Virus record (IMG/VR): IMGVR_UViG_3300008450_006252
Span: 1-60,099 of that record
From: a virus
Length of the DNA: 60,099 bases
Strand: one strand, 5' to 3'
In this document: in pieces, positions 11,153-48,778 of the stretch
Numbering within the stretch: the first letter of the stretch is position 1
Layout: every line of letters starts with the position of its first letter
Notes under the pieces: generated by a model
Told to the model about the DNA's origin: nothing
What the model saw: the letters and a program-made list of their open reading frames with translations, nothing else
The model's database searches: none
Position numbers and translations under genes: made by a program

Positions 11153-11223
11153 GTTGTTGCCTTATAAAGAAATCCTGCATACATATTTAACAGTATACAG
11201 GATCACGAGAGAGAAAGCAAGAG

Positions 11224-12141
11224 TTACTTCTTCTTTTTCCAACGATCTTTGAAGGCATCAGGGCACCATCTGGTTGCAATTTCCATTGGATCATTTTGAG
11301 CCAATACATCTAATGCTTCAGGAGTCAAATCGATTAACTTGCGTTCTGTCGAACCAGGAGTTATATTGTAGAGACTCTGCTTTGTTTCTTCCCTAACATC
11401 TTCAAAATTTGAATCAGGAAGATCTTCAAACAAGCAAATAAATTCCTTGTAGTAAGAATTACGATTCCATCTATTATAGGTTACTTCTTGTATTGTTGCA
11501 TTGGTTACGTCAATGAATCTTCCGTCAACATACTGTAACACTCCGTCGTTATATTTTTCAAACGGACGTAAATTTTCGTTAGTAGTGGGACCACCGTGTG
11601 TTCTTTCTGACGTATGAACGGTCGTTGCTAAAGCATGATTCATTGCATATCTAGCCATGTCTTTAGGGCTGACTCTCCTGCTGTTTTCGATCACTTCTCG
11701 AATTAAATCTTTTTCAATTTGTTTAATAGGATATGTGTGCTCGCAATGCCATTCATTGGCAAAGTTATCACCTGATAAACCGGCCAACCCTAGCTCATGC
11801 ATTCTTCCAATGGCCTTGCCAGTGATTAGATCTGTACCGCTATTGCCGGTAGCATGTTGTAATCCCATAACATCTGAATGAAATTTTCTGATACCGCCAT
11901 TACTCCAATGCACAGTGTCACCAGAAATGCTCGCCTGGTTATATTCAGGTCCTGCGGCAAAACCACCATTGAAAAATCTTTTGTAATAGCAATATTCTTT
12001 GAGTTCTTCGATTGTGCGGGCTTTAACATGATTAGCAAATTTTCGCAAGTCGCCGGCCATAAATGCTAATCTTACACCGGCCGTTATAGCCTTTAGAACG
12101 GCTTTGTTGGGATCTTGTGCAAGTAGTTTCTGAATATTCAA
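11224..12141 (-). CDS. putative HNH-type nuclease
   Basis: About 305 residues. The best start is TTG at 12141, with AGGAG 6 bases upstream; the ORF-maximal TTG at 12147 abuts the ribosome site. EWHCEHTYPIKQIEKDLI (about residues 138-155) followed by TTVHTSERTHGG...NLRPF (about 190-210) resembles an HNH beta-beta-alpha metal core (EH...H...N). The rest is not recognisable. It could be a free-standing homing or defence-type nuclease; it is isolated by about 70 bases on each side. No repeats mark a mobile insertion. Confidence 0.45.
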   Translation of the reverse strand: MNIQKLLAQDPNKAVLKAITAGVRLAFMAGDLRKFANHVKARTIEELKEYCYYKRFFNGGFAAGPEYNQASISGDTVHWSNGGIRKFHSDVMGLQHATGNSGTDLITGKAIGRMHELGLAGLSGDNFANEWHCEHTYPIKQIEKDLIREVIENSRRVSPKDMARYAMNHALATTVHTSERTHGGPTTNENLRPFEKYNDGVLQYVDGRFIDVTNATIQEVTYNRWNRNSYYKEFICLFEDLPDSNFEDVREETKQSLYNITPGSTERKLIDLTPEALDVLAQNDPMEIATRWCPDAFKDRWKKKK

Positions 12142-12222
12142 AACCAACTCCTAAGTTGTTACAATGCACACACTATAACACAAGAACAATTTTGAGTCAA
12201 TCAAATTGTTAAAATAAAAGTA

Positions 12223-13761
12223 TTATATTTCTGTGCTCAGGTTGTCCAATTTGTCACTGTCCAAATCTACTTCGTCGGGCTCCGACTCACTGTCCTCATA
12301 TTCAAACAATGCATTGAATTGAGTAGTAGCATTCACAGTCTTCTTGCCCTTAAAGCCTCGTGTGCCCACAATCTCCATCCAATATGTACTGTATTTCTCA
12401 ACAATAGATTCGGCTTGTTCTCTTGTGGGTGCAGTGAAAATATCTTCCACAATGTCTTCAAAGTAAGCATAGTCACCAGTGCTACGACGCATCATGGCAG
12501 GATGTTCTCCTGCATCAAAACGTCTATTGGCTTCTTGTACTGCGGTCAAGTGCATCCAGACATTATGGCCCATGAGTAAAGCATATGAGAAACTGTCCCA
12601 CGATGTCTTGCCTTCTTTACCATTTTTATTTAGGTCGCCTGGCTTGTAGATACAGATGTCTTTCATCTTGAGAAGTTTGCTTATGGGGCTATCTTCCCAA
12701 CGTGGTACTACTCCATCGGCAACTATACTTGTACCCCAGGCACGTGTGTCAGTGGCGTACTTTTTGTCGTCGGCTGTAGGAGCCATGCGATACGACCATT
12801 TTGAGTTGTTTTCAAAGACATTTTCAAAGTAGACCTGTCCGTTTGCTGTTGCAAGGAACGGACTGGCGCAGTCAAACGAGATTGTGAAGTTTGGATTGAC
12901 ATATTTTCTCACGGCCCTTTGGATTACAGTTAATAAAACAGCCCACTCCAGTTTGGAGGTTCCCAAGAAGTGCATCCAATCATGGACACCTTCTTGAAGT
13001 AAATTGTCATAGCGCAATGCCACAATACGTTTGAGTACCAAGTGAACATCACACATGTTTTGTCCGCCCATGGCCCAGCCATTGAAATGCGTATCTGGAT
13101 ATTTTTGTGGATCGCAATAATCCTTCATCATCTGATACCATTCTTCTGCATGAGTATGGTTACCACCTTGCAACACATTCAAGAACTTGGTACCACCGTT
13201 TGCCACACCCTTGCGATGTTTCATGAAGTATTCGTTGTTGTAATGTGTTGCCTTGACTGCCTCATCCAAAGTGCTAATGCCAGACTTCCATCCATTCTTT
13301 TCATTGATAACAAAACTTGGAATATCAAGTGTCATAGCATAGTCTGCTATACCATCTAACCAGGCTAGTGCTTGTTCTCGTTTGGCCTGAGCCTTGGCAC
13401 AACCTGAGTTGGCTCGCCAATCACCTTCCCACACACCTTTAGCAATCTGGAAACCACCAGAGTCGCCCAGCATGATTGTGCCAGGCTCTCTGTTCCGTAC
13501 CATGTCTTCTGACCAGTCTTGTTTAGCAAGATCGAGATTTGCATGCCCTCCAGAGTATAGGGACCAACGGTAAGGGAAAAGTGCTTTGGTAGAGTTAAGC
13601 CAATTAAGTTGCTCCATGTCACTAAGGCCCTGAGGCAATCTCGCCGGATCCACATATGGTTCATTCCTTTGCTTGCCTATGAACGTGGCATAGAACCCGC
13701 TGATGGCCGGAAGGAACACAGCGTAGTCCGATTGCTTGGCAGTTAAGTCGTCTTGGGTCAT
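12223..13761 (-). CDS. dpdA: DpdA-like tRNA-guanine-transglycosylase superfamily protein
   Basis: A 512-residue protein with the TGT signature MLGDSGGFQIAKG (D100 as general acid/base), TLDIPSF (D146), LNVLQGG (about 194-200), NGWAMGG (about 227-233) and FDCASP (D297, the place of the nucleophilic Asp). It lacks the TGT zinc-binding Cys set of tRNA enzymes. Phage proteins of this kind (DpdA) exchange guanine in DNA for preQ0 or a derivative. With folE and queD in the same window, DNA 7-deazaguanine modification is the natural reading. The sulfotransferase start overlaps its stop side. Family firm; DNA substrate inferred. Confidence 0.75.
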   Translation of the reverse strand: MTQDDLTAKQSDYAVFLPAISGFYATFIGKQRNEPYVDPARLPQGLSDMEQLNWLNSTKALFPYRWSLYSGGHANLDLAKQDWSEDMVRNREPGTIMLGDSGGFQIAKGVWEGDWRANSGCAKAQAKREQALAWLDGIADYAMTLDIPSFVINEKNGWKSGISTLDEAVKATHYNNEYFMKHRKGVANGGTKFLNVLQGGNHTHAEEWYQMMKDYCDPQKYPDTHFNGWAMGGQNMCDVHLVLKRIVALRYDNLLQEGVHDWMHFLGTSKLEWAVLLTVIQRAVRKYVNPNFTISFDCASPFLATANGQVYFENVFENNSKWSYRMAPTADDKKYATDTRAWGTSIVADGVVPRWEDSPISKLLKMKDICIYKPGDLNKNGKEGKTSWDSFSYALLMGHNVWMHLTAVQEANRRFDAGEHPAMMRRSTGDYAYFEDIVEDIFTAPTREQAESIVEKYSTYWMEIVGTRGFKGKKTVNATTQFNALFEYEDSESEPDEVDLDSDKLDNLSTEI

Positions 13762-21959: not shown

Positions 21960-22685
21960 TTAGCGTTCATCCAAATAATCTTGTTGGCTTGTTTGTTGAG
22001 CCTGTTGTTTCATTGCTCTGCGTTTTTGAAACAACTTTACTGCCATGTCAGCATGGTCTAGGTTTTTAAATTTGCTGGGCATGGATCTATTACCTTGCCG
22101 CAGTTCAAATCCATCCTTTTCGTTGCCATAACATTCAAAGGTAACACCATATTCCATGGCGTAACTTTTTACCGGAGCAGATGATGTTTCTGACATGTCA
22201 TTGATAGGCTGTTGTGGGTTGCCTAGCTGAGTGTCTACTTTGTCCTCGATGCCATGCACTGTGCTGGGATCTGTCAACTCGTAGTCATCTTCTTCAATTT
22301 CTTCTTCGGCTTGACCTTTTTCCACAGCGTCAACTGCTTTGTCTTTGAGTTCACGATCAACTCGAACTTTTTGTTCCAACTGATCAAGATATTGTGTAAG
22401 GTCCTTCTTGACCTTGCTCAACATATCTTCTTCAACTTCTTGCATGGCTTCTTCTAGTGCGGATTTTCTGGGCTCTACAGAATCACCCACCATGTATCCA
22501 TCCATTGGATGTGCTGGATCTTTTTTGGCACGCAACGCAGGACTGGCTGATTTAGGCTTGAACAGCGCAGGCAACTGTGGCACACCTTTTTGTTGTGTGT
22601 TAAGCCCATGCTTGACGCCTACTGGCGTAAGTTTACCTTCTACCGCCGCAAGGCGTTCCAGTATTGATCTAATGTCCGAACTCAT
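21960..22685 (-). CDS. hypothetical protein, 241 aa, virion-associated family
   Basis: Starts SSDIRSILERLAAVEGKLTPVGVKHGLN and has a central acidic coiled-coil-like stretch (EEAMQEVEEDMLSKVKKDLTQYLDQLEQKV, about 80-110). A small C-terminal domain follows (YAMEYGVTFECYGNEKDGFELRQGNRSMPSKF, about 175-205). I recognise the N-terminal and central parts as recurring in environmental T4-like phages with GVAEG proteins. It overlaps Dps (ATGA) and abuts the 20426 gene. Function unknown. Confidence 0.65.
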   Translation of the reverse strand: MSSDIRSILERLAAVEGKLTPVGVKHGLNTQQKGVPQLPALFKPKSASPALRAKKDPAHPMDGYMVGDSVEPRKSALEEAMQEVEEDMLSKVKKDLTQYLDQLEQKVRVDRELKDKAVDAVEKGQAEEEIEEDDYELTDPSTVHGIEDKVDTQLGNPQQPINDMSETSSAPVKSYAMEYGVTFECYGNEKDGFELRQGNRSMPSKFKNLDHADMAVKLFQKRRAMKQQAQQTSQQDYLDER

Positions 22686-23122
22686 GCTCTTTCTTCTTTC
22701 AGGTAACTTCTCAGCATCCAGCCATGCTTTTGATGAGCATCGATGCGTTCAGCAATGAAGTTAGCAATACCTTGTTGGTTTTCTTCAGTTGCTACTTGGA
22801 AGACTTGATTGAGAAGATCCAACATTTGGCCGTTGTTGGCCAAGAGTTCTTCTAGCATGAGTCGGGCACGTGGAATTTTTGTTTGGCCCTGTATTTTTGT
22901 TAATTCTACAAATCGTTCAAAACTACCAGGAGCATAGTCGCCCAGGGCACGTATGTATTCTGCTGTGGGATCTGTAGCACCATAAACATCGTCATGGATT
23001 GCGTCAAAGAAAGCGTGAAGCTGGCCAAAGTCTGGGCCTTCAACGTTCCAGTGGAACTGTTTGGCTTTGAGAGCAAAAGCCTCCTCAGTTGCCAGGAGTG
23101 TTTTTAAAGCGTCCGCTAACAT
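22682..23122 (-). CDS. dps: Dps/ferritin-like DNA-protection protein
   Basis: Start at ATG 23122 (MLADALKTLLATEEAF), 146 residues, the normal Dps size. AKQFHWNVEGPDFGQLHAFFDAIHDDVYGATDPTAEYI holds all five inter-subunit ferroxidase ligands in family spacing: His of FHWN, His and Asp of LHAFFD (H+4 = D), and Asp/Glu of DPTAE. Dps dodecamers store iron, consume peroxide and coat DNA. It overlaps the small 23085 gene upstream and the 21960 gene downstream, so it is expressed with virion-type genes. Phage Dps proteins are uncommon; purpose inferred. Confidence 0.88.
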   Translation of the reverse strand: MLADALKTLLATEEAFALKAKQFHWNVEGPDFGQLHAFFDAIHDDVYGATDPTAEYIRALGDYAPGSFERFVELTKIQGQTKIPRARLMLEELLANNGQMLDLLNQVFQVATEENQQGIANFIAERIDAHQKHGWMLRSYLKEERA

Positions 23123-23297
23123 TCTTATTCCTTTTGTATTCCTTGGGCGTGTTAGGCGTAGGATCAGTTGTATATTTACCACTCAACAAGGATCCGCCTG
23201 ATCTTGACACCATGCCTAAGGCCTGGCTCACAGGTGCTATACTACCAGCACTGGTGCCGCCCACTGACGCATTTTCCATGATTTCTTGAATTTTCAT
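23085..23297 (-). CDS. small protein with head-targeting-like N-terminus, 70 aa
   Basis: A 70-residue protein starting MKIQEIMENASVGG, then a Gly/Ser-rich segment (GTSAGSIAPVSQALGM) and a basic tail (YKRNKNVSGRFKN). The first ten residues resemble T4 capsid-targeting sequences (M-K-x-x-E-[FI]-[IM]-x-E) that end at a gp21 protease site (IME then N). It runs 38 bases into the Dps reading frame. Basic, disordered and short, it could be an internal head or DNA-binding protein. Confidence 0.6.
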   Translation of the reverse strand: MKIQEIMENASVGGTSAGSIAPVSQALGMVSRSGGSLLSGKYTTDPTPNTPKEYKRNKNVSGRFKNTPGN

Positions 23298-28869: not shown

Positions 28870-29226
28870 TTATTTTCCTGCTGCAAACAGTGCGGCACCG
28901 CGATTGAAACTGTCGCTCCAACTTGCAGGTTGTCGGCCACCGCGCTTTTGACTCCAGGCATATCCTGCTCTGTGACCAGAACAGTCTTTGGTGCATTGTG
29001 AACCTAGAAAACTTAATTCACGCAGTTGCTCGCGGGTCCACTTGTCTGGAATTGTGCCGTGTTTTTTCACAAACTCGTCGTGCAGTTGTTTGCCAGTAAT
29101 GCCGTAGTCACGAGCAATGGTTTGCATCATGTGATCAATTGCGCTGTAGCTCTTGGGATCATCTAGATCTTTTTCCAAATCTTCTACAGCGCCTTCTTTC
29201 AACTGTGCAAACTCGTATGCTCTCAT
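28870..29226 (-). CDS. hypothetical protein with head-targeting-like N-terminus, 118 aa
   Basis: Starts MRAYEFAQLKEGAVEDLEKD, a short helix ending in LKE-G, a possible gp21-type protease site. The body has a small helical domain (MMQTIARDYGITGKQLHDEFVKKHGTIPDKW) and a C-terminal block (ELSFLGSQCTKDCSGHRAGYAWSQKRGG...SWSDSFNRGAAL). The C-terminal block recurs in modular phage proteins and has two Cys plus a conserved HRAGY.W. Overlaps the 611-residue gene (ATGA). Probably virion-packaged with it; function unknown. Confidence 0.6.
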   Translation of the reverse strand: MRAYEFAQLKEGAVEDLEKDLDDPKSYSAIDHMMQTIARDYGITGKQLHDEFVKKHGTIPDKWTREQLRELSFLGSQCTKDCSGHRAGYAWSQKRGGRQPASWSDSFNRGAALFAAGK

Positions 29227-31058
29227 TTTTTAGGTTGCACCGCTGTGGGCATGTTGCGATACACACGCTTTTGGGGATCATACACAGTTTTAAGTGGGCC
29301 CAAGCCAGCCAGTTTCTTTACTCTAGCAATCATGTCTTGATAATCATCACCGTAGTCGGCTTCTTTTTCTTTGGGAGTTGATTTGCTTTCGTCAGCCTTT
29401 TTAGGCAAGTCTGCATAGTCCTGCTTGCGATCAGCACCGTGGAACTCTTGAGCAACGTCTTGGCTGATGCCAACTTTTTTTGCAAATTCAGGATTGTGTG
29501 CGGCTGCTGCCATGGTGCGGAATTGTGCTTGGCTGGTTGACTTTTCATTCAAGTCACCTTCTTGCATGTTCTTTAATAGTTCTTTTGCTTTTTCAACACT
29601 AACCATTGGTCTTGGGTGCTTGCCGTCTATTACACTTTGTAAATATTCTTTGCTAAAGCCTTTTGGTGCTTCTGCAGCCGGTTTATTATCAGCAGGTGAT
29701 GTCATTGTTGCACTTGGCTTGAATCCGCCAGTGAAACCGCCTTGGCCATCAGGAGTAACTCTAGCATTGGCACCACCTGCGCCCAGTGCCATTGCACCTG
29801 CCAATGCCGCGCCACCTAATTTTTCTTTCCAGCCTTCGTCAAGATCACCTTCCGCTACACCTTGTTCTCTTACACTACTGCGGAAATGTCTGGCATCATT
29901 TGCATCGTGTTTGCCGCGTTCTAATCCTTTGGCCCATTCGTCATTTTTACGGGCTTCTCTTGTGGCACTATATGGATTGTCTCTGATGGTCATACCTTGT
30001 TTGTATGCTCGACGACCCAGTTCGTATGCTACGCCAACACCTGCTAGTTCATACTCTTCCGCCATGCCTTTCTTCTTCAATGCTTCCTTATTTCTCACCC
30101 AGCCTTTGCCACCGCATTCTGGGCACTCATCATCGTGTGTATCTATTCCAGTGCCATCGCAAGAACCACATTCATGCTTTTCACCAGTGTTACCGTAAGC
30201 ATCTGACTCCGAGCCTTCCGCCATGCCTTGTCCTAGATTGGCTATGTAACCATCAGGGCCAGTCCATTGATCTTTATAGTCTTGCCATTCTTTTAGACCC
30301 CAAGCTATAGGAAACTGATGCCAAGCCCACATTCCGTGGGTATTAAACTCGCTAGAAAATTCCTGTATGTCAGCCTGTGTAATGCCTGAGGTATTGGATT
30401 GTTTGGCGACCTCAATCAACCAGTGCGCCATAGTTTCGCCACCGTCGTCAAGATTACCTACTTTTTCTAATTTATTAAACCTATCTACACCTTGCCTTTC
30501 AAAGTTGCGGCAAATTTTTTCAAGCCAATTTATAAATTCCTGGCCCCATTTGGCCAATGCTGTTTCTGGGTCGCTGCCTGTTCTTGCAGTGAGAGACTTA
30601 TTCAAACTATCTACACTTTGCCTAGCAGTAGCACCACCTGTGATCTGACCCATCATTGAGTCAAACTTTTGATCGCCAGTTGCTTCCGCCACACCTTGCT
30701 TCTTGTTTAACTCTTTGTTTAGAATCTTTTCAGCATCCTTGGCTACTTTTTTAGCAGTGGTTGCTTTAGCAGTGTATTCTTTTTTGCCGCCTTCATCGTT
30801 ACTACCATCACGCCCTGGAGGTGTTTGTGATTTGTCCATTTCCATCACACCTTCAGACTTGTTGCCATAATTGCCAGCGCCTTTTTTGCGACACTGAACC
30901 AAGCGTCCAGATGCATAGGCTGATGGCCATACTTTTGCTGACGCTTTTACTTTGTAGTAGCAGGCGTCTTTCTTTTCCATCATCAGCATTTCACTGAACA
31001 TGGGACCACCACAGTGTGGGCATGACTGTGAGGCTTCAAATAAGTCGTCTATAATCAT
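29223..31058 (-). CDS. modular GVAEG-repeat protein, 611 aa
   Basis: Starts MIIDDLFEASQSCPHCGG: a ten-residue acidic leader ending LFE-A, then a zinc-knuckle-like CxxC. Modules are separated by GVAE/GMAE linkers at about residues 71 (GVME), 122, 279, 330 and 402. These are a Lys/Ala-rich segment, a helical domain (residues 126-275), a DnaJ-type CxxCxG-like zinc repeat (HECGSCDGTGIDTHDDECPECGGKGW, about 292-317), a Tyr-rich HRxG-like block (ELGRRAYKQGM) and a C-terminal 'MIARVKKLAG' block. A polyprotein cut by the prohead protease would fit. Domains themselves are not enzymatic by eye. Confidence 0.65.
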   Translation of the reverse strand: MIIDDLFEASQSCPHCGGPMFSEMLMMEKKDACYYKVKASAKVWPSAYASGRLVQCRKKGAGNYGNKSEGVMEMDKSQTPPGRDGSNDEGGKKEYTAKATTAKKVAKDAEKILNKELNKKQGVAEATGDQKFDSMMGQITGGATARQSVDSLNKSLTARTGSDPETALAKWGQEFINWLEKICRNFERQGVDRFNKLEKVGNLDDGGETMAHWLIEVAKQSNTSGITQADIQEFSSEFNTHGMWAWHQFPIAWGLKEWQDYKDQWTGPDGYIANLGQGMAEGSESDAYGNTGEKHECGSCDGTGIDTHDDECPECGGKGWVRNKEALKKKGMAEEYELAGVGVAYELGRRAYKQGMTIRDNPYSATREARKNDEWAKGLERGKHDANDARHFRSSVREQGVAEGDLDEGWKEKLGGAALAGAMALGAGGANARVTPDGQGGFTGGFKPSATMTSPADNKPAAEAPKGFSKEYLQSVIDGKHPRPMVSVEKAKELLKNMQEGDLNEKSTSQAQFRTMAAAAHNPEFAKKVGISQDVAQEFHGADRKQDYADLPKKADESKSTPKEKEADYGDDYQDMIARVKKLAGLGPLKTVYDPQKRVYRNMPTAVQPKK

Positions 31059-31942
31059 TTCTTTTTAGTGGCCACGTTGATGGCCTTTCCTGTGCGGTTG
31101 GGGTTGGGATCTTGTCTGCGTTTTCTTGCGGCTGCTGACGCACGACCTTTTTTGCCCAGGGCATGTGCTTTGGCTTGCGGCAAACACTTGGGCTTGCCTT
31201 CTTTTGAACTGCCTCTAGCACAATCACCACGGATCTTGCCGTCGGGCCCAAAGCGTACCCACTTGTCTTTGAACCAATCACGGAGATTTTCTTCCAACTC
31301 GGTTTCGCTCACAGGCACACAATTGGGCACCTGACGACCACCTTTGTTTTTCATGCCTGCTTGGCGATAACCAGTCCAGCAGGCTTCAAGAATTTCTTTA
31401 TATCTCATGATGGGTTATTTATTGCGTTTGGCTCGAGCCCGTCCAGCCTTCATGTTGGCCATCCAGTGTGCCAATTGTCCTTTGCGACCGCCTTGTTTGG
31501 CCACTTTACGCAGGGTGCTTACTGATGCTTTGGTGGGCACGCCGTGTCGCTTTGAATCGCCTTTGTCTTGGGGATTCCGACCGTCAGCAAAGTTTTCACC
31601 TACGTTGTATGTGGGATCAGTTTTTTGACGCTTGATGCCAGCAGGTTGATTGGGATCTACAGGATCAATGTCAGTGGTGGTTAACCCTAGTTTTTCCAAC
31701 TGCTTGATGTATTCATGTTCAAGATCTTCGTCGCCAAAACTCACAATAGTACTGGGTGGTCCTTTGCCAAAATCGTCAGTGTTATCTCTGTCTAAGTTAG
31801 CAATGTTCTTGCCCAACTTGTACCAGTCATACATGTCTGACACATCCACTCGCACAGTGCCCGCTGGCATTGTGGGTCGGCTTTCAGGACCAGGAGGATC
31901 AAAGTTTCCGTAGCGATCCTTGCCTTCGGCTACACCTTCTGT
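29848..31942. repeat. GVAEG linker repeats, six copies in the 29-32 kb block
   Basis: Copies of a roughly 20-bp repeat with plus-strand core CTTCCGC[CT]A[CT][AG]CCTT[TG] lie at 29848-29867, 30055-30074, 30214-30233, 30682-30701 and 31923-31942, plus a weaker one near 30838-30857. Every copy is read in the same frame on the minus strand as [QEK]G[VM][AM]E[GAEM]. Two more copies at 47982-48001 and 48282-48301 lie in the 47387 gene. Constant frame and protein sense argue for a protein-level function, while DNA identity suggests recent copying or recombination. Confidence 0.75.
31055..31408 (-). CDS. DUF5872-type basic virion-like protein, 117 aa
   Basis: Starts MRYKEILEACWTGYRQAGMKNKGGR; the leader ends ILE-A, a good gp21-type site. 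The body has WFKDKWVRFGPDGKIRGDCARG, KPKCLPQAKAHALGKKGRASAAARKRR and DPNPNRTGKAINVATKKK, a recurring phage family that I recognise as DUF5872-like. It has several Cys and is very basic, suiting DNA or RNA binding inside the capsid. It overlaps the 611-residue gene by 4 bases. An AATAAATA box lies 7 bases before the ATG. Confidence 0.7.
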   Translation of the reverse strand: MRYKEILEACWTGYRQAGMKNKGGRQVPNCVPVSETELEENLRDWFKDKWVRFGPDGKIRGDCARGSSKEGKPKCLPQAKAHALGKKGRASAAARKRRQDPNPNRTGKAINVATKKK

Positions 31943-34900
31943 CATGATTGGCACAACTTCAAAGCCTTCGCCTGACACTCCCCGACCATTGTTTCGCAAC
32001 CATTGAGCCGCTACACGGTTAGCATCGCCTTGATTGTTGCCCACGCCTGAAAATCTATGAACTTCTTCACCATTGACCAACACCTTCCATGCACCAGAGA
32101 ATGTGCCTGGCGTGGCTCGCTGTTGTGCCAAGGCTGCTGTGCTTCCAGGGTAGACCACCTCTATATCTGGTTCAATGTCAATGATACCACCCGATGCTGC
32201 ATCTGCAGGCCGATCCCATTGTTCAGTATCCACCACCATGTAGTCAGCAGCAACCACATTGTTTCTAGCAGCCCAGGCTTGGAGAACATATCTGCCTTGT
32301 GCCTGTTCCGCTGGATTGCCCATGTTAAATCTAAACTGATAGTCAGGTGCTGGGCCAGTAAAACTGCCATACAGGCCTGGATCCGAGCGTAGCACAATGG
32401 CATAGCGACCGTTGGGGTCATTGGGGCGGCCACCACCTTGAGAACCTGGCGGTGCAGTAAAGGCACTAGCTGTGTCGTCGTCTTGTGTAGATTGTGCATC
32501 CAAATTATACGGACGCACAGGTTCAGCCACAATAGATTGTCGTGTGTTGGCCCAAGACGGATAGCCATCATCCCCCAAGGCTTTTTCAATGGCTTCTTCT
32601 CGAGAGGTGGCAACAACTTCTACACTGGCATAACTATTGCCAGGATTGGAAACGTTCCACCACATCTTTTCACCGCTTGTTTTATTACGCTCCGTCTTGC
32701 GTTGTAGTTGTGCTTGCTTGACAAAACTACGCAAGGCAGCCTTGGGAATCTTGCCAGCCACATAGTCAGCAAAGTATCGGATTGTGTCTGACCCTTTTTG
32801 ATCCTGAGTCAACAGTTTGTATAGTTTCTTTTGATACTCTTCTCGATAGGCTTCAGGGTTAAGTGCTGCACTCATGGCCACTGTGAAACGCAACAGAGTG
32901 TTTTCAATCTTGTCAAAGTTGTCATCCAGCCAGTCACCACCCGGCGAACGGAATTCAATGTGTCCGCTCTTGGTGTTGATTGATGTGTACTTGTCTGTGC
33001 TGCCTGAATGGATGGCCTTGGAAGCCAGTTCACCCATTTGACCTTTCATCTTGTCCAGCAAACGCTGTGCGTCTTCGGGGTTGGACCGCACACGATCACG
33101 CACCTTGCCTAGTGCTGATTTGGTGTAGGTATTGGAACTGCGACCAAATTGTTTGAGCACATACTCGTCGCCCAACAGCAAGGCCAGTTTTACATAGTCC
33201 AAACGATCTAAACTGTAGTCAGGCACTGATATGTTGATGTGCAGGCCAGTCGAACTGTTGGTATAAACGCCCATGCGTCCAGCCCAGGCCTTCACGGCAT
33301 TTAAATCTTTCAGCAGTTCATCTATGGGCATGGGCGGGCTCACAAACTCCAAGCCTTCGTCGCCGTCATTGTCGCCTTCCAAACTGGCGTCTGGTTCTAC
33401 TACATAGAATTGATTGTTGGGTCCAGGTCTGTCGCCGGACTGATGATATCTTGTGTTCACTCGCACTTCACGACCCACAGCCTGACTGAATTCGTCAGCC
33501 ACTTGATCTGCGTCAATCTCGCCGCTGTTCATGCTAGTCCAGTAGGGCCAATTCATTCCATACATTTGCTCAACCTCACTCATTCTGTCAAGGTCTGTGG
33601 CGTCTAACCAGTCGCTTTCGTCATAATTTTCTTGGAATTCTTCCCGCCATTCATCAAAGGCTTCATTGTAGTAAGTACTCGAAGGATCAGCGTCTACATT
33701 GGCTGCAAATTCATCAAATGCTTCGTTTCGTTCATCACCAGTTAACTCGTTAGGATTCCATTCATCTTCATTTACATTATTCCGAAGCCAGTCACGAATG
33801 TAATCTTGGCTTTCACCGCCCCAGTCATCGCGAAGTTTTTCATCCAGCCATTCCTGGAAATCGTCCTGCATTCTTTCACGCAGGCGTTCAACATCTCTAC
33901 GGCCGTTGTAGTCGCCATCATGAAAGAATCGCACAGCATCATCAATGCTAACACAGCGTTCATCCTGATCATAGTCTGGTTCCATTTCAGGATCTTCGGA
34001 TTCCATACCAGGCACAATCATTTCAAATTCCATGCCAGCAATGGCACCTGTTTTGGCAGCTTCCCTGCGCAAATTTTTGCTGCCCATGTTTATTTCAAAC
34101 AGGTCTTGTTCTTCAAACAGTTCAAATTCTTGTGCTAGACTTTCTGCTAACTTTACCTTGCCATCTGCTCGCAACAGTTGTGGATGGCCTTGCGAATCAG
34201 TGGCCAGTCGCATCTTGTTGGCTTCTGTGCCAGTTTGTCCTGGATGCACATCCACACTCAGTGCCATTTCAAATCGAGGATCGTTGCGTTCGGCCCAGGT
34301 GGGAATGTATCCAGATGACTCACGAATGTCTTCATGGTCAAACAGTTCTGGGTGTGCATCAGCAAAGTCTCGCATGATAATGCCAGCCACAGCGTTTGCT
34401 TCGTTCTCCACAGGAGAGCCTGTGTTGCCAGATGTGTGATCCAATTGTTCTAATTCCTGTTGGCGGCAGTGTGCCAGTTCGTGTGCCACAGTGCGAAGAA
34501 TATCCATCACATGTCGATCGCGCAGATTCACATGCAAAACATGCAGCTCTGGTTGGTACATGCCAAATGAACGATTTTGTTCACTCCATCCGTCATTGTC
34601 ATGTAGTACAATTTCAGGCATGCGTTCAATGCCCAAGCGTTCAGCAGTGTCTTGAATAAACTGTTGCACCATGCTCTCAGTGTCATCTTCATTCAAGAAC
34701 ATTTGTGTGCTGGCAGCAACACCATCTTCTGAACTGTAGGGTTGTCCTTGATGGCCTTCGCGCATGCTTTCGCCACCACCACCGTCACCACCTTCGCCTG
34801 ATTCTCCTCCGTAGCCAAATCCAGGAGACCAATAGCTGCCAAATCCATAACGCACTCGGGATTTCTTTTTTCGGCGTTCTTGTAGACTCAGCTCGTGATC

Positions 34901-35584
34901 TTGTGCGGCTGTTCTAGCTGTGCGCAAATCCTTGATGCAACCTTTGTTACGCAGGATTTTGAACACAATGTTTTCACACCCAAACTCGCCGTGAGCATCC
35001 AAGCCACTTTGGCGCATGGCCTTGATCTTGTCCCACAGTCTGCTCATGGATTCAGCGTTGCCAGATTCAATTGCTGAATGTATTCTAGCATCCAAATCTT
35101 CGACCTTGGCTCGCACACAGGTGTCGTCAATTCTGGCACGTTTTCTGCGTGGCACTTGAATCCATTCGTCACGTGGGATAGAATACTCACCTTGACTCAC
35201 AGGAGACTCGGCTGCATTTTGCACATACAGTTCCACAGGCACGCCGCCGATGCTCAACTTGTGTTCATCGTTATATTGGTATTTTTTGGCATTGAACAGT
35301 TCCTGATAAACTTCGTCGTCAGCAGGAAACTCCACCACAAGGTGTAGATCAATGTCGGAATATGGGGTATAGCTGTAGGCAGCATTACTGCCTGAGATGG
35401 TTATGTCACGGACGTCAAGGTCACCTACGCCAAGAAATTCGCGAAAATTGTCAGCAATGGCCAACAGCTTTTCGCGTACTTCGGGTAACAATTGCTCGTC
35501 CCTGCCCCAGATTTTAGGGTTGAGACGATTGTGAAACTTTACAGCATCACTCAGCTTGAAGGAATCCAGTTCGTTGATGTTCAT
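31415..35584 (-). CDS. 1389-aa nucleotidyltransferase / zinc-peptidase / amidoligase polyprotein
   Basis: Domains in order. An N-terminal polymerase-beta-fold nucleotidyltransferase: GSNAAYSYTPYSDIDLHLV (65-83) with D77/D79 and a third acid in VELYV (about 118). A Gly/Ser linker (250-285). A gluzincin-like peptidase HELAH (368-372) with VENEANAVAG (about 392-401) as third ligand. An amidoligase-like domain from GMEFEM (517) through LEFVSPP, STGLHINIS and GHIEFRSPGGDW (about 880). Then small C-terminal modules, a GVAEG linker and a basic KRHGVPTKASVSTLRKVAKQGGRKGQLAHWM tail. Likely packaged and processed; each activity is inferred from motifs. A GTAAATA box lies 8 bases before the ATG. Confidence 0.75.
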   Translation of the reverse strand: MNINELDSFKLSDAVKFHNRLNPKIWGRDEQLLPEVREKLLAIADNFREFLGVGDLDVRDITISGSNAAYSYTPYSDIDLHLVVEFPADDEVYQELFNAKKYQYNDEHKLSIGGVPVELYVQNAAESPVSQGEYSIPRDEWIQVPRRKRARIDDTCVRAKVEDLDARIHSAIESGNAESMSRLWDKIKAMRQSGLDAHGEFGCENIVFKILRNKGCIKDLRTARTAAQDHELSLQERRKKKSRVRYGFGSYWSPGFGYGGESGEGGDGGGGESMREGHQGQPYSSEDGVAASTQMFLNEDDTESMVQQFIQDTAERLGIERMPEIVLHDNDGWSEQNRSFGMYQPELHVLHVNLRDRHVMDILRTVAHELAHCRQQELEQLDHTSGNTGSPVENEANAVAGIIMRDFADAHPELFDHEDIRESSGYIPTWAERNDPRFEMALSVDVHPGQTGTEANKMRLATDSQGHPQLLRADGKVKLAESLAQEFELFEEQDLFEINMGSKNLRREAAKTGAIAGMEFEMIVPGMESEDPEMEPDYDQDERCVSIDDAVRFFHDGDYNGRRDVERLRERMQDDFQEWLDEKLRDDWGGESQDYIRDWLRNNVNEDEWNPNELTGDERNEAFDEFAANVDADPSSTYYNEAFDEWREEFQENYDESDWLDATDLDRMSEVEQMYGMNWPYWTSMNSGEIDADQVADEFSQAVGREVRVNTRYHQSGDRPGPNNQFYVVEPDASLEGDNDGDEGLEFVSPPMPIDELLKDLNAVKAWAGRMGVYTNSSTGLHINISVPDYSLDRLDYVKLALLLGDEYVLKQFGRSSNTYTKSALGKVRDRVRSNPEDAQRLLDKMKGQMGELASKAIHSGSTDKYTSINTKSGHIEFRSPGGDWLDDNFDKIENTLLRFTVAMSAALNPEAYREEYQKKLYKLLTQDQKGSDTIRYFADYVAGKIPKAALRSFVKQAQLQRKTERNKTSGEKMWWNVSNPGNSYASVEVVATSREEAIEKALGDDGYPSWANTRQSIVAEPVRPYNLDAQSTQDDDTASAFTAPPGSQGGGRPNDPNGRYAIVLRSDPGLYGSFTGPAPDYQFRFNMGNPAEQAQGRYVLQAWAARNNVVAADYMVVDTEQWDRPADAASGGIIDIEPDIEVVYPGSTAALAQQRATPGTFSGAWKVLVNGEEVHRFSGVGNNQGDANRVAAQWLRNNGRGVSGEGFEVVPIMTEGVAEGKDRYGNFDPPGPESRPTMPAGTVRVDVSDMYDWYKLGKNIANLDRDNTDDFGKGPPSTIVSFGDEDLEHEYIKQLEKLGLTTTDIDPVDPNQPAGIKRQKTDPTYNVGENFADGRNPQDKGDSKRHGVPTKASVSTLRKVAKQGGRKGQLAHWMANMKAGRARAKRNK

Positions 35585-36518: not shown

Positions 36519-37235
36519 TTACGACCTAGACTCTTCCATGTAGTCAATAACGGGCTGATTTTCTCTAGCTTGATAGCCTGCCTTCATGCCACCCACACTC
36601 AGTTGATTCTCGCTGGTAAATGTCGCGGCCCAGCCTTGATTCTCAGCCACAGTACCAATGGCAGTGTCCAACAGTTTGACAACATTAGCAGCCAATTTGG
36701 GATTCTTTTGTGTTGCTGGATACAAGCTCATCACAAGAGCTGTTTTGCGTTTTTCGTTTAGTGTGGGCCATGCGCCACGAATCTCTGTGGCCGACGTCAT
36801 GCCTGGACCAAACTCCACTGTGGGTAGGTAGGCCATGTAGGCATGTTTTGCAAATGGCTCTAATCGCTTTGCACCTATCAGTGGTTGCAAGTATGCAGGA
36901 TTGCCATCTTTCTTTATGCCGCCTGCTTGTGGAGGTTTGTTGGCGTCTTTATCAGAACGCACAAAAATTAATGTGTCTGTAGCAGGGTTAAATTGCGCAG
37001 TAATTTCTTCAGCACGAAACGGTGATTTGACCTGCACAAAATGTCCAGCATCTACTCCAGCCAGCTTGGCCAACTTTTCTTTTACTGCAAATGGAAATGG
37101 TCTAGCTGAGGTATCGTTTGTGGCCGCAACAAAAACTTCAGCATCAGGGAATGCCCGTTGTGCGGATTGATAAAGTGCTAGGTGCCCTGCATGGAAAGGA
37201 TGAAATCCCCCGGGCATGATTACTACAGTGCTCAT
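36519..37235 (-). CDS. HxGH nucleotidyltransferase (cytidylyltransferase-like)
   Basis: A 238-residue protein with GGFHPFHAGHLALYQSA (about 9-25), the HxGH motif of the NMNAT/cytidylyltransferase superfamily, and SATEIRGAWP (about 145-154), the ISATxIR motif. The C-terminal 75 residues (YMEESRS end) are unrelated and may tether it to a complex. It could activate a sugar or phospholipid precursor or take part in NAD synthesis. A CTAAATA box lies 6 bases before the ATG. Confidence 0.75.
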   Translation of the reverse strand: MSTVVIMPGGFHPFHAGHLALYQSAQRAFPDAEVFVAATNDTSARPFPFAVKEKLAKLAGVDAGHFVQVKSPFRAEEITAQFNPATDTLIFVRSDKDANKPPQAGGIKKDGNPAYLQPLIGAKRLEPFAKHAYMAYLPTVEFGPGMTSATEIRGAWPTLNEKRKTALVMSLYPATQKNPKLAANVVKLLDTAIGTVAENQGWAATFTSENQLSVGGMKAGYQARENQPVIDYMEESRS

Positions 37236-38237: not shown

Positions 38238-38933
38238 TTATTGTTTTTTCACTATGGGCAGAGTTTTCCTAACCATGCCCGGGCATACCATACTCAGCAT
38301 GGTTTCATATTGTAGGCTATTGTGCTCGATGTAGTAATAGCTTTCAGTAACATCATTGCGCCACCAATACACCCGTGTTGGCCTAATTTCAATATCTAAA
38401 AATTCTCGCAAACTCTTGCTGGCTGCAACGTCATTGCCCTGGGTGGTTATCCATGCAGCCAGTCGAGACTTTTGTGTTTTGCCAAGTGATCGCCCACGGA
38501 AATAAGTGCGGTATTGATACTGTGGATTTTTTAATAAAATTGTATCAGGTGGCAAATTGAGTTCTGCTCGTTTGAGATCTACAGACTCAATCCAATCGCA
38601 TGCCATCAATCGACCATGCAAGCCAAGATTGTTTGTGTACACTGTGAGATAATTGTTGAAAAACACCATTTTCTTTGGGGGAGTTTCTGCTGCCAACAGT
38701 GCTCGCATGCCTTCTAAATTGTCACAACAGCGTGTGGTAAATTTGCTTATAAATTTTTCGCCATAGCGTTGGTAATGAGAATTTCTACTAGCTTCGTACT
38801 CCATTCTCACGCGAATGTGTGACTGCATTTTCTTTTGATCAAGACTGCGAATACACCCAATTTCGTCCTGCTGCCAGGTCATGGCATATTCATATGCGTT
38901 GTAGTACAACGAACTACGCGATTCACTTCTCAT
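38238..38933 (-). CDS. hypothetical protein, 231 aa
   Basis: A 231-residue, Tyr/Arg-rich protein with no recognised motif. RCCDNLEGMRALLAAETPPKKMVFFNNYLTVYTNNLGL suggests a helical/strand mix. It overlaps the ClpA-like gene by 11 bases on the same strand. Function unknown. Confidence 0.6.
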   Translation of the reverse strand: MRSESRSSLYYNAYEYAMTWQQDEIGCIRSLDQKKMQSHIRVRMEYEASRNSHYQRYGEKFISKFTTRCCDNLEGMRALLAAETPPKKMVFFNNYLTVYTNNLGLHGRLMACDWIESVDLKRAELNLPPDTILLKNPQYQYRTYFRGRSLGKTQKSRLAAWITTQGNDVAASKSLREFLDIEIRPTRVYWWRNDVTESYYYIEHNSLQYETMLSMVCPGMVRKTLPIVKKQ

Positions 38934-41205
38934 TGTCCACCACTATAATTCCATCAACATTTACACTTGCAATCACTTCCACAGGTGCGTCCGCTTGAAC
39001 ATCAAACACAATTTTGTCCGCCACAACATCCGCAGTGATAGTACAATCACGCAAGCGATCAAACAGGATCTTCTTGCTCAACGGCACACGAATCAGTTCA
39101 TCAATCTTCCTCGAGAGTGGTCGCGCACCCAGCTTCGAATCATAGCCCTTGTCAGCAAGCAGGTCAACTGCGCCTTCGGATAAGTTGAGACGTATACCTT
39201 TTGCAAGCAAACTCGTTTTGAGTTCATCCACAAACTTGACCACAACTTTCTTGATTGCCAAAGTATCCAGCTTGGAGAATTTAACAATTTGGTCGATTCT
39301 GTTGCGTAGTTCAGGCTTGAAAAACTCTTTGAGAGCTCGGTCGTCCTCACCAGTCTTTTCAAAGCTGCCAAAGCCAATGTTGTTTGCTTCACTGTCCCGT
39401 GCTCCTAAGTTTGAAGTCATGATAATGATGGTATTCTTGCAGTTGGCTTTCTTGCCGTTCGAACTGGTAATAACACCTTCATCCAGCATCTGCAACAAGA
39501 TGTTGGTAACATCAGGGTGCGCCTTTTCAATCTCATCAAACAATATTACTGCGAAGGGATTCTTGCTGATGTCAGAGATCAGTTTGCCGCCACCTACATT
39601 GCCATCTTCAAATCCCACATAACCCGGAGGCGCACCAATAAGGCTGCTGACTGAATGACGCTCTTGGAATTCACTCATGTCATATTTCAGCAGTTTCATA
39701 TCCAAATTGTCACTCAACAGTCGTGCTAGTTCTGTTTTACCTGTGCCTGTTGGGCCCAAGAACAAGAAACTCGCCATGGGCTTTTTGTCATTGGCAATGC
39801 CAGCAAAGTTGATGTACACACGTTCCAGCACTGAATCAACTGCTGAATCTTGTCCGTACAATTTCTGCTTGATGTTGCCTTCAAGATCCACAATCTTAGC
39901 TGAACGTTCGTTTTGCAGTTTGTCTGTGGGCACACCAGTCACACGAGTCAACTGTTCTTCAATCATGGCCTTGGTAACTACTACTGTGCCCAGATCTTTC
40001 ACACGCTCTCTAGCACAGGCTGCATCAATCAAGTCAATTGATTTGTCAGGATTCTTACGATCGTGTATGTAACGATTGGCCAGTTCCACAGCCGCAGTCA
40101 TTGCTTCAGTTTCAATCAGCACATTATGAAACGTTTCGAGCCGGGGAGATAGACCAATAAGAATCTGCTCCGTGGTTGCAGTATCTGGTTCATCAATTGA
40201 CAAGCGGTAGAATCTGCGCATGAGTGCGCGATCTTTCTCAAATGATTCATAGTATTCTTCCCAGGTGGTCGACGCCACAACTTTCAAGTTGCCTTTGGTA
40301 ATAGCAGGTTTCAGCATGTTAGCAAAGTCAAGTGAACTGTTAGAGCCTGAACCTGCGCCACGCATGGTGTGTGCTTCGTCAATGAACAAGATACATTTCT
40401 TCTTGGTTTCAAGAGCAGCTATTACTGCTTTGAATTTTTCTTCAAACTCACCGCGATACTTTGATCCTGCCAACAATGACCCAATTTCCAGGCTCCACAC
40501 TTCGTGATCCTTAAGAAACTCTGGCACACGACCAGCCACAATTTCCTGTGCTAGTCCTTCCACAATGTGTGTTTTGCCCACACCAGGATCACCTACCATC
40601 AGCACGTTGGCTTTGAAACGGCGTGCCAGTGTGGTGACCATTTCTTGAACTTCTGTGGCTCGCCCAATCATGGGCTCCAGACGATTGCCGCGAGCCGCAC
40701 CTGTGAGATCTGTACAGTACTCAGTGAGTATTTCTGTGGCCTGTGCTTGACTCAGCTTGGCGTCTGAGTGAGTGTAGGTCTTTTGCCAATGATCCACAAA
40801 CTCCTGTTTCTTCACACCATACTTCAACAAGAAGTAGTGTGCATGACTGTTGGTTTCTGCCATGATTGAAAGATACACATCAATCACAGTGAGTGTTCTG
40901 CGTCCAGTAAACATGACCTGTACATTGGCACGATTGAAAATGCGTTCCAGTGCAGTGGTCTTTCGAGGTTGTATATCTGCGCTTTTACTCACAATAGAAA
41001 TCAAGCTGTTGAGGTAGCTGTCTACTTCTTGATCCAGCATGCCAGAGTCGGTGCCAAATTTGTCCAGAGTTTTTCTAAATGGCTGGTGCCGTATCAGGGC
41101 CAACAGCAAATGTTCTGTGGTCACGTATTCGTGACTTTTGGAACGAGCCAATTCAATGGCGTCTTCTACGATACTTTCGAGTTCAGAATGTTGTGACATG
41201 GGCAT
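38923..41205 (-). CDS. clpA: ClpA-like AAA+ unfoldase
   Basis: A 760-residue two-ring AAA+ protein, the size of E. coli ClpA. N-terminal Clp repeats (EDAIELARSKSHEYVTTEHLLLALI); D1 Walker A GDPGVGKTH (about 209) and FIDEAHT; D2 GPTGTGKTE (about 487), the SNLGARD sensor region and ELRNRID. The D2 loop NIGFGS keeps an IGF motif like the ClpP-binding IGL/IGF loop of ClpA/ClpX. No middle coiled coil of ClpB. It could redirect host ClpP. A late-type box lies about 60 bases upstream. DnaJ lies next upstream. Confidence 0.9.
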   Translation of the reverse strand: MPMSQHSELESIVEDAIELARSKSHEYVTTEHLLLALIRHQPFRKTLDKFGTDSGMLDQEVDSYLNSLISIVSKSADIQPRKTTALERIFNRANVQVMFTGRRTLTVIDVYLSIMAETNSHAHYFLLKYGVKKQEFVDHWQKTYTHSDAKLSQAQATEILTEYCTDLTGAARGNRLEPMIGRATEVQEMVTTLARRFKANVLMVGDPGVGKTHIVEGLAQEIVAGRVPEFLKDHEVWSLEIGSLLAGSKYRGEFEEKFKAVIAALETKKKCILFIDEAHTMRGAGSGSNSSLDFANMLKPAITKGNLKVVASTTWEEYYESFEKDRALMRRFYRLSIDEPDTATTEQILIGLSPRLETFHNVLIETEAMTAAVELANRYIHDRKNPDKSIDLIDAACARERVKDLGTVVVTKAMIEEQLTRVTGVPTDKLQNERSAKIVDLEGNIKQKLYGQDSAVDSVLERVYINFAGIANDKKPMASFLFLGPTGTGKTELARLLSDNLDMKLLKYDMSEFQERHSVSSLIGAPPGYVGFEDGNVGGGKLISDISKNPFAVILFDEIEKAHPDVTNILLQMLDEGVITSSNGKKANCKNTIIIMTSNLGARDSEANNIGFGSFEKTGEDDRALKEFFKPELRNRIDQIVKFSKLDTLAIKKVVVKFVDELKTSLLAKGIRLNLSEGAVDLLADKGYDSKLGARPLSRKIDELIRVPLSKKILFDRLRDCTITADVVADKIVFDVQADAPVEVIASVNVDGIIVVDNEK

Positions 41206-47386: not shown

Positions 47387-48778
47387 TCAGCAGTTCCATT
47401 TTCTCAATGCTAGAGCCTTGCGTGTGGGTTTGCCGTTGGGTTTTTTCATTGGGCCTTTAACGCCTGACATTCTGGCGCAGAATGATTTGCGTCTTTTTGC
47501 TGCCTTAGAGCCTTTCTTTAGTTTTGAAGGCTTGGTGGTCACGGCCATTTGCAATTTTGATCCAGGATTTTCTCTACGATATGATGCCACACCTTTGGCG
47601 TTTAATCCGCCTTTTTTGCTCTTGCCTTCTTTACGTCGCCAGGCGGCTGTTTCATACAGCACATTGTCCGGCATGGCTTCAAACTGTTCCCACACTAGAT
47701 CTTCGCTCACACGATTTTTCACAGCCATTTCTGCTACCAACTCTTGCATGGCTTCAAACATTTCATCCACTTCGGGATCCACTTCGTCTGACGCTTCCTC
47801 TGAATACATATAGTCCCACACAGCAACCAGCATTGACTTGGCCACAGCAATCTTTTCTTGACACCATTCAGGCAAGTTATCACCTGATTGAATTAGATCG
47901 TCAATACCTTCTACAGCACGTTGTAGCGTTTCTAAGTTGTTGTCGGCCATGCCTGCTTCGTCGTCATACTCGCCATTGTAGTCTTCCGCTACACCTTGCT
48001 CACTAAATCGCTGACGATAACTGTTGGGATTCATTGACGATCTAGAACCAACTACAGCATTACCTTCGCCACTCAGCAACAAATCATACATGAGTTTGAT
48101 TACTTTTAAAGGGCTGTTCATTCTTTCCAGGGCATTTTTAAACCATTCAACTTTTTCTGGTTTCATTGGCTTGGCACTGGGCTTGCTGATCAATGCCAGT
48201 GCCTGTGCTTTCAACGTGGACAAGTCTCTGATTTGTTCAAGACGTTTTAGATCCTCAATATCAAAGTTGTAATCAGCTTTGCCTTCCGCCACACCTTGCT
48301 GATCTTTGGGCTCGTCAAACAAGGAGTCTATGGCTTTTTTGCCGCCATACAACACAGCCAACACAATGCCAGCAGGGATGGCATATTTAAAAGCCAAAGC
48401 AGACAGGTCAAGCAATGTTTTCTCGTCAATGGCCGTGCCCACCTTGGCAGCAATATCTTTGGCAATGTCTGCCACAGAAGATCCAATTTCGTAAGCACCA
48501 GCACCCATGCCAATTTTTCCAGCATTCTTGGCTGCAATTTCTGTGCCAGCTCGAGCAGCCTGACCTGCACCGCGAGCTCCTGCTTGTCCTGCTTGGCCAA
48601 GAACCTGTGCTATTTTTGGGGCAGCAGCCATGAACAGTCTTGCACCTGCTGCCAACAACGGCGCAAATTCATCAAGCTGTTGTTCTTTGACCATGCCGGC
48701 CTTTTTCTTTTTAGCAATAGCAATGGCTGCCTGTTGAGCAGGCGACGCTGCTTCTAGTATTACGTCATTTAGTTTCAT
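47387..48778 (-). CDS. modular GVAEG-repeat protein with DUF6321-like C-terminus
   Basis: From ATG 48778 (MKLNDVILEAASPAQQAAI...), 463 residues. The leader ends VILE-A. Then EQQLDEF, a hydrophobic Ala/Gly-rich membrane-like region (about 40-165), QGVAEG and EQGVAED linkers around helical modules (about 165-265), and a C-terminal block GGLNAKGVASYRRENPG...KSFCARMSGVKGPMKKPNGKPTRKALALRKWNC. I recognise that block as a widespread phage DUF6321-like domain. Same architecture style as 29223-31058. Likely virion-internal and cleaved; inferred. Confidence 0.65.
   Translation of the reverse strand: MKLNDVILEAASPAQQAAIAIAKKKKAGMVKEQQLDEFAPLLAAGARLFMAAAPKIAQVLGQAGQAGARGAGQAARAGTEIAAKNAGKIGMGAGAYEIGSSVADIAKDIAAKVGTAIDEKTLLDLSALAFKYAIPAGIVLAVLYGGKKAIDSLFDEPKDQQGVAEGKADYNFDIEDLKRLEQIRDLSTLKAQALALISKPSAKPMKPEKVEWFKNALERMNSPLKVIKLMYDLLLSGEGNAVVGSRSSMNPNSYRQRFSEQGVAEDYNGEYDDEAGMADNNLETLQRAVEGIDDLIQSGDNLPEWCQEKIAVAKSMLVAVWDYMYSEEASDEVDPEVDEMFEAMQELVAEMAVKNRVSEDLVWEQFEAMPDNVLYETAAWRRKEGKSKKGGLNAKGVASYRRENPGSKLQMAVTTKPSKLKKGSKAAKRRKSFCARMSGVKGPMKKPNGKPTRKALALRKWNC
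47982..48301. repeat. two distant copies of the GVAEG repeat
   Basis: Copies at 47982-48001 and 48282-48301 are near-identical to the five clear repeats at 29.8-31.9 kb, about 16 kb away, and again encode QGVAE[DG] in frame. Their presence in a separate gene supports spread of the linker between proteins. Confidence 0.7.

Follow-up and report, generated by a model that had tools for sequence, protein, structure and literature searches.

What are the short leaders and recurrent GVAE linkers of a set of phage proteins for? The question is raised by a minus-strand gene block between positions 28870 and 35584 of a 60,099-base virus record (IMGVR_UViG_3300008450_006252, here called the window; positions refer to the whole stretch). 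A sequence-only reading of this DNA had proposed that the proteins are packaged in a T4-type head, cut by a gp21-type prohead protease at leader and linkers, and injected into the host. We consider it probable that the genes encode head-targeted polyproteins that would be cut by a gp21-type protease into small packaged proteins, and that the linker is also a joint at which modules are swapped. The most unusual part, absent from the sequence-only reading, is a 21-nucleotide (nt) DNA repeat encoding the linker, together with module shuffling.

In the proposed mechanism, a short N-terminal leader would direct the precursor into the prohead, where the gp21-type protease would remove it after a [hydrophobic]-x-E site. 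The same protease would split the chain at GVAE, GMAE and LxE sites between the modules, and the resulting small proteins would stay in the head and could enter the host with the DNA. The commonest internal site, (E/K)QGVAE(G/A), is carried by the 21-nt repeat, and recombination between linker copies would move linker-module-linker cassettes in frame, with a protease site at every junction. The full dual role of the repeat, as a DNA joint for swapping modules between phages (and between polyproteins and stand-alone genes) and as a peptide site freeing modules in the head for injection, is a tentative proposal, somewhat less likely than not.

Leaders and linkers in the window

Five minus-strand proteins of the window begin with a stretch resembling a T4-type propeptide (approximately 7-20 residues ending in L/I-x-E). 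With an arrow at the putative cut, these are the 117-amino acid (aa) protein MRYKEILE↓ACWTGYRQAGMK (31055..31408; first residue after the site A), the 611-aa polyprotein MIIDDLFE↓A (29223..31058), the 118-aa protein MRAYEFAQLKE↓G (28870..29226), the 463-aa polyprotein MKLNDVILE↓A (47387..48778) and the 70-aa protein MKIQEIME↓NASVGGTSAGSIA (23085..23297; first residue after the site N). The leaders start at 31408, 31058, 29226, 48778 and 23297, and end in ILE, LFE, LKE, ILE and IME, as the sequence-only reading had described; they are not uniformly ten residues long, however, but 8, 8, 11, 9 and 8, and not all of them are acidic.

Among open reading frames (ORFs) of at least 60 aa in the window, GVAE or GMAE occurred seven times, in three minus-strand proteins only. 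The 611-aa protein has four (GVAE↓A, 30683..30695; GMAE↓G, 30216..30227; GMAE↓E, 30057..30068; GVAE↓G, 29849..29861) in addition to LxE sites, and the last of the four is absent in a related contig, L004. The 463-aa protein has two (QGVAE↓G, 48283..48295; QGVAE↓D, 47983..47995). The 1389-aa multidomain protein (31415..35584, minus strand) has one, IMTE-GVAE↓GKDRYG (31924..31936), where the relative in L024 reads IMTE↓GKDRYG. The claim that such linkers go together with leaders was right as to the seven linkers, but only two of the six proteins combine both features; the 117-, 118- and 70-aa proteins have a leader without GVAE. Likewise, the block is coupled by 4-nt overlaps at 31055-31058 and 29223-29226, but a 6-nt gap at 31409-31414 interrupts the series.

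The DNA pattern GGNGTNGCNGARG matched five times in the window against 0.11 expected, and none of 100 shuffles reached five. Together with the strong retention of linker residues P1 and P3 described below, this led us to reject a chance origin. The leaders and linkers are real and exceed chance.

A conserved 21-nt repeat encodes the linker

Relatives comprised 38 loci found by protein search with the 611-aa protein and at least 119 additional stretches from a DNA pattern scan with 14 fixed bases, which itself fixes CAA, GGT, GAA and the next G. A protein was classed as a polyprotein if it had two linkers or combined a leader with a linker, so that fortuitous GVAE in unrelated sequences (DNA polymerase, for example) was left out; 51 of the 119 pattern-scan loci listed carried such proteins and the remainder did not. 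The sequence-only reading had suggested a survey of related phage DNA, and both features proved widespread among the relatives listed: among these matches, many long proteins contain repeated (E/K)QGVAE(G/A) and many neighbouring genes begin with MRAxEFIxE or similar.

At the DNA level the linker is a 21-nt repeat with sharp edges, RARCAAGGTGTGGCGGAAGGC, in which synonymous bases are conserved as well. Relative to the cut, conservation spans bases -18 to +2 and is at background level beyond either edge. Codons were counted at 71 non-redundant sites, in loci selected for protein rather than DNA similarity: the Q codon was CAA in 50/51 (background.71), the G codon GGT in 59/71 (.42), the V codon GTG in 50/62 (.29) and the A codon GCG in 57/71 (.09); G was the first base of the next codon, behind E, in 66/71 (.38). 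Codon preference was rejected as the source of this conservation because GCG is the rarest alanine codon in these genes and yet is used in those 57 linkers.

The same picture came from homologous modules that both follow GVAE, 45 pairs with 50-92% protein identity drawn from loci not selected on DNA. The two linkers of a pair shared the codon for G in 45/45, V in 41/45 and A in 45/45, against 203/335, 46/60 and 174/263 at identical residues inside the modules. With all loci included, the figures were 73/73, 59/73 and 65/73 against.60,.55 and.59 in modules; the codon-pair and substitution results thus hold with loci not fetched by DNA pattern. Copies from one contig resembled one another no more than copies from different contigs did (13.04 against 12.87 of 15 nt), and therefore local gene conversion within each genome is not favoured.

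The repeat is tied to coding. A search of 27 loci and three contigs, both strands included, gave 85 distinct copies (at most three mismatches), and 84 of these were read as the linker within an open frame at least 100 codons long. In polyprotein genes, 92 of 93 copies were in one frame (loci not chosen by DNA; 293/298 in all loci). A coding-independent mobile DNA repeat would occur in any frame and outside open frames, which was not what we found. A translational-pause or RNA role of the repeat is possible.

An exact 20-mer of the repeat had three matches in a bacterial and archaeal genome collection, all in open frames. They lie on three bacterial contigs (L217, L218 and L219), in frames reading QGVAEG, and may be chance matches or phage remnants. 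A bacterial origin of the repeat was rejected, the collection holding just these three exact matches.

The linker resembles a gp21-type protease site

In T4, gp21 recognizes L/I-x-E and cleaves behind the glutamate; from core proteins it produces several fragments, most of which are cleared (PMC9026906). Substitutions in the linker were counted in 90 non-redundant in-frame copies (at most five mismatches to the DNA consensus, loci not chosen by DNA). P1 was E in 88/90 and P3 was V/M/I/L in 89/90, while P2, P4 and P5 drifted; amino-acid changes numbered 22 at Q, 12 at G, 13 at V (12 of them to M/I/L), 15 at A and 2 at E. With pattern-fetched loci included, P1 was E in 277/290 and P3 V/M/I/L in 285/290, with 75, 40, 45, 50 and 13 changes. 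As judged from these substitutions, the linker appears to follow the gp21 rule, L/I-x-E, widened to V and M.

A second line of evidence came from modules that follow GVAE in one phage and were located elsewhere. The 282 places comprised 67 GVAE, 36 N-terminal and 150 internal ones, with 29 dropped for a GVAE-like sequence nearby or a contig edge. At the 150 internal non-GVAE places, the boundary residue was E in 48% and the boundary read [LIVMFT]xE in 40%, against 3-8% at the eight offsets upstream and 1-5% within the module (offsets 20-47); there was a second, smaller peak of 13% at +5. However, 32 of the 60 internal [LIVMFT]xE matches are decayed linker copies. Among 115 places with linker-unlike DNA (at least 7 of 15 bases different), [LIVMFT]xE stood at the boundary in 28, against 3-11 at each of eight neighbouring offsets. 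At the 36 gene starts the boundary value was 33%, where upstream offsets were also raised (3-17%, small numbers).

Single pairs illustrate the exchange of leader and linker: EQGVAE↓EWSQKYKSSI corresponds to MRITEFINE↓GWSQKYKSSI, EQGVAE↓NFADGRVKGK to MRASEFVTE↓NFADGKVKGK, and MRAQEFTQGVAE↓G occurs in L026 and L037. In these comparisons, GVAE appears to behave like a gp21-type [hydrophobic]-x-E site, equivalent to [LIVMFT]xE and to leader ends. As expected of a protease-processed polyprotein, the module boundaries carry repeated sites that are selected as sites. The earlier claim of cutting at leader and linkers is favoured by the site comparison, while the cleavage as such is something we infer.

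Modules are shuffled at the linker

Near-identical modules occur in differing order and company across related phages. In 69 polyproteins, 33 of 53 protein alignment ends at 90% identity or more fell within six residues of a linker, where 6.7% is expected; at 35% identity or more, 290 of 1171 ends were at a linker. DNA breakpoints lay in the linker in 37 of 53 cases at 94% identity or more (6.1% expected) and in 158 of 364 at 80%. The breakpoints in protein and in DNA alike were counted per protein and direction and so are not independent. At 94%, the shared DNA usually started 14-19 bases before a cut and ended -1 to +3 bases from the next cut, therefore the exchanged unit is linker-module-linker. 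Since the conserved linker itself prolongs alignments, these breakpoints show homology switching at linkers and not the responsible enzyme. Module shuffling at the linker is well supported. That the synonymous positions are kept because the repeat is also the module-exchange joint is what we propose, and linker recombination would be the reason for this conservation. One candidate for a clean linker-to-linker event, L004 against L001, was rejected: its 90-nt deletion ends exactly at GVAE but starts inside a module.

Could the linker be primarily a DNA element, either a recombination joint or a spreading repeat, whose peptide is a harmless spacer at which the proteins remain uncut? The retained synonymous positions, the equal likeness of copies within and between contigs, and the breakpoints at the repeat would all suit such an element. 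Against it stand the nearly invariant frame, the retention of P3 and P1 while P2, P4 and P5 drift, and the presence of unrelated [LIVMFT]xE sites and leader ends at the same boundary. We regard a pure DNA element as unlikely. The evidence against it leaves the DNA role intact, and the polyprotein explanation includes both roles.

Head genes of the parent phage

The window is contained in a 364,404-base contig (G001), which three 60-base probes from the window matched exactly and in order. The contig encodes a gp21-type Peptidase_S77 protease (E 2e-24) and a Gp23 capsid protein (E 7e-98), and because of these two genes the guess of a T4-type head was right. The two families co-occurred in the same four of ten contigs; the other six, possibly fragments, had neither. 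By inspection, gp22-like, gp20-like and core proteins adjoin the two genes, and the gp23 propeptide ends in YLKE↓NASS, resembling the window leaders. The gp22 of this contig has 18 [LI]xE sites against 7.0 expected. Its DNA polymerase is nearest, among named phages, to those of the jumbo phages Phosso (51%) and Atu_ph07 (47%). The window comes from a jumbo phage of T4 type, a giant bacterial virus from fresh water.

Virion location by homology

Mass spectrometry of virions of the Synechococcus phage S-CREM2 detected 52 proteins (PMC10665884). We compared 81 ORFs of the window region and the block proteins with 213 of the 219 S-CREM2 proteins, 48 of which were virion-detected. The four block proteins and the 463-aa protein matched detected proteins only, namely gp137, gp156 and gp160. 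The 1389-aa protein is a homologue of gp156 (34% over 231 aa, E 1e-36) and the 611-aa protein of gp160 (78% over 41 aa). The 117-aa protein is similar to gp160 as well (two stretches in one comparison, one in another), the two matches to gp160 having E 4e-15 and 3e-6; the 463-aa protein is similar to gp137 (42% over 86 aa, E 1e-9) and the 118-aa protein weakly to gp137 (31% over 48 aa, E 8e-5). The endolysin-like ORF at 46466 matched one detected and one undetected protein, and the other matching window ORFs (polymerase, PhoH-like, clamp loader) matched undetected ones.

Gp029 of S-SCSM1, which has the same modules, is annotated as a virion protein, and S-P4 annotates the family as structural (T4-GC0119). 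Leaders like MKNFSSFLTE↓A occur on S-CREM2 gp6, gp13, gp14, gp136 and gp154, all of them detected. The S-CREM2 authors caution that such proteins may be purification carry-over rather than packaged (PMC10665884). Virion location of the four block proteins and the 463-aa protein is well supported, as a prediction from homology. The idea of head packaging accordingly fared well, the S77 and gp23 genes, the gp23 propeptide end and the detected S-CREM2 homologues all pointing to it.

Several side observations concern the virion. The S-CREM2 genes gp12-gp15 (7704-13331) form one cluster, all virion-detected, and encode two small proteins, a kinase (MKRFDAFLTE↓E) and a nuclease annotated as Cas9, close to whose start stands RFASFMAE↓A. 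In the 70-aa window protein (23085-23297), the stretch after the site is like the mature gp23 N-arm (ENASVGGTSAGSIA against ENASSGSTVSGNIA in the gp23 of G001); gp23 was its best ungapped non-self match among 459 called genes of that contig (score 46, next 33). Similarly, S-CREM2 gp160 (L221, 23343-24236) contains AGATGFTGAAAPEGPVAGYDPLMG, which resembled the capsid protein gp145 with a score of 87 (next 33, among 44 neighbouring proteins). Such a capsid N-arm copy is possibly a shell-binding tag. At the other end, RVKKLAGL near the C-terminus of the 611-aa protein (29301-29324) is like DLKRLAGL, the end of the gp22-like scaffold (G001, 261426-262520), by eye, and ARIKSLALLK, the end of an 878-aa GMAE-bearing protein (G001, 205329-207965). 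A shared shell- or core-binding tail is possible.

Weighing the explanations

A number of points weigh against the polyprotein explanation. The case for cleavage at the linkers is a comparative one. E or D occupies P1' in 60 of 285 linker contexts (approximately one fifth, chance ones included), which is unusual for a gp21-type protease. The T4 rule (PMC9026906) allows L/I but neither V nor M at P3. The 1389-aa protein, which makes up most of the block, bears a linker without an [IL]xE leader, and several relatives likewise lack a leader. Counts of [LIVM]xE followed by a small residue exceeded shuffles clearly in the 117-aa protein (p.002) but only at.06 in the 611-aa protein, and showed no excess in the other three proteins counted. 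The decayed copies among the internal boundary matches, the raised offsets at gene starts and the dependence among the breakpoints belong here too. QGVAE codons were absent from the eight named phages searched (including T4, Atu_ph07, Phosso, P-SSM2, S-CAM8 and AG-345-E15), so that the 21-nt repeat is known here from metagenome contigs only; among 213 S-CREM2 proteins, GVAE occurs once, in gp208, and QGVAE not at all. Finally, the leader patterns that mark detected S-CREM2 proteins are also found on undetected ones. Over all S-CREM2 proteins, the association between leader and detection was not significant for three patterns (p.119,.092 and.40); among non-structural proteins it gave.0275,.0063 and.129 (uncorrected).

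The proteins might instead enter the head and stay in one piece there apart from the loss of the leader, as multidomain effectors for injection like polyvalent proteins, the linkers being domain separators. Polyvalent proteins are multidomain and predicted to be injected (PMC5512222), and stretches of nucleotidyltransferase, HExxH and amidoligase type are united in the 1389-aa protein. On the other side, selection keeps the linker residues as a [hydrophobic]xE site, and Tat-signal-like modules (Tat, twin-arginine translocation) stand directly after sites. Tat signals normally require a free N-terminus. We judge whole packaging rather improbable.

In a further alternative, the modular proteins would be core proteins of scaffold type that gp21 degrades to empty the maturing head; their fragments would be lost and nothing delivered. 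This has in its favour the mostly removed fragments of T4 core proteins (PMC9026906) and the by-eye likeness of RVKKLAGL to the gp22 end, but it is very improbable given homologues in finished S-CREM2 virions, some modules that match enzyme families and a variety between related phages that is unsuited to a core scaffold. Detection alone would be compatible with this scenario because the gp22-like scaffold of S-CREM2 is also listed as detected.

For the gp21-cut polyproteins, persistence of the pieces in the head and their injection are steps that we infer. Some modules resemble enzymes, and the pieces may act as injected enzymes.

Module content and neighbouring genes

A Pfam search of 65 polyproteins gave 24 families at E 0.01, including DUF6321 in nine, GNAT acetyltransferase in three and cytidine deaminase in two; a LysM domain and weaker matches such as ribosome modulation factor, Tat-signal, ParB-like and others were also found. 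In a scan of three contigs, leader genes with a ribosome site numbered 6, 1 and 5 against 1, 0 and 0 in controls, which are few. The Tat-signal-like modules (TRRGFLRGLGAAA and similar) lie within a few residues after a leader E or a linker-like site, in the L031 gene from base 8306 and in L131, L106, L027 and L030. It is as if cleavage at the preceding site would expose an export signal.

In the 1389-aa protein, the N-terminus is nucleotidyltransferase-like (residues 14-233; phrog_36119, below the Pfam cut-off), the HExxH stretch AHELAH gave weak M78/metalloprotease matches (M78 E 0.074, below the Pfam cut-off), and an amidoligase-like domain (residues 691-885) was above the cut-off. At E 0.1, Pfam gave no metallopeptidase domain for the 611-aa or the 463-aa protein. 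The 463-aa protein ends in DUF6321 (PF19846, E 1e-21). The 611-aa protein has, between its third and fourth linkers, a ribosome modulation factor-like module (29859..30062, minus strand; PF04957, E 3.8e-4, below the curated cut-off), which follows GVAE in L026, L030 and L031. Its predicted structure (mean predicted local distance difference test score, pLDDT, 57.5) was too poor for use, and no PDB sequence matched it at E<=1.

Just upstream of the block, a 238-aa cytidylyltransferase-like protein is encoded at 36519..37235 (minus strand); proteins with a similar start carry GVAE in G004 and L140. A ferritin/Dps-like protein (22682-23182) and a ClpA-like ATP-dependent protease (phrog_4871; 38923-41205) are also encoded near the block.

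Comparison with known systems and significance

Leaders and gp21 sites are textbook T4 features. The T4 internal proteins IPI-III and Alt, which have a capsid-targeting sequence and are processed by gp21, share with the window proteins a short leader ending in [hydrophobic]-x-E; the S77 gp21 and gp23 of G001 and the homologues in virions of a T4-like phage add to the likeness. The window differs in chaining many modules per precursor with internal sites, and in using as module boundary an internal site that is a DNA-conserved 21-nt repeat. Polyvalent proteins (Iyer et al., 2017) are likewise large and multidomain, with enzyme-like domains and predicted injection, and such multidomain injected proteins are already known; they are processed, according to PMC5512222, by their own metallopeptidase domains, whereas here prohead-protease-like sites and a standard linker bound the modules. 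In T4 gp22/gp67 and in SPN3US and phiKZ head proteins, one protease also makes several x-x-E cuts per chain (PMC9026906, PMC10052503 and PMC5694885), but those pieces are mostly propeptides or scaffold for clearing, in contrast to the conserved, exchangeable domains here. The cyanophage T4-GC119 family, S-CREM2 gp160 and S-SCSM1 gp029 share the modules KVWPSAYASG, CW.GY..G and DUF6321 and are virion-detected or annotated as such; their separators are varied ..E sites, and P-SSM2, S-CAM8 and AG-345-E15 are without QGVAE. Among the open-licence PMC papers listed, we found no description of a standard coding repeat that joins exchangeable modules with a head-protease site, and no match for GVAEG together with phage.

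How phages diversify their injected proteins is mostly unknown, and as a rule the borders between their modules cannot be seen. With a standard linker as marker, many small proteins that are candidates for host takeover can be sought in uncultured jumbo phages, and the mature ends of modules predicted. The linker would also be a natural design rule for loading several proteins from one gene into a T4-type head, and it presents a case, open to testing, in which selection would act on one set of 21 bases both as recombination substrate and as protease site. If the explanation is true, a repeat-flanked module would at once be in frame, head-targeted and releasable, and the injected arsenal of these phages could be rebuilt by recombination.

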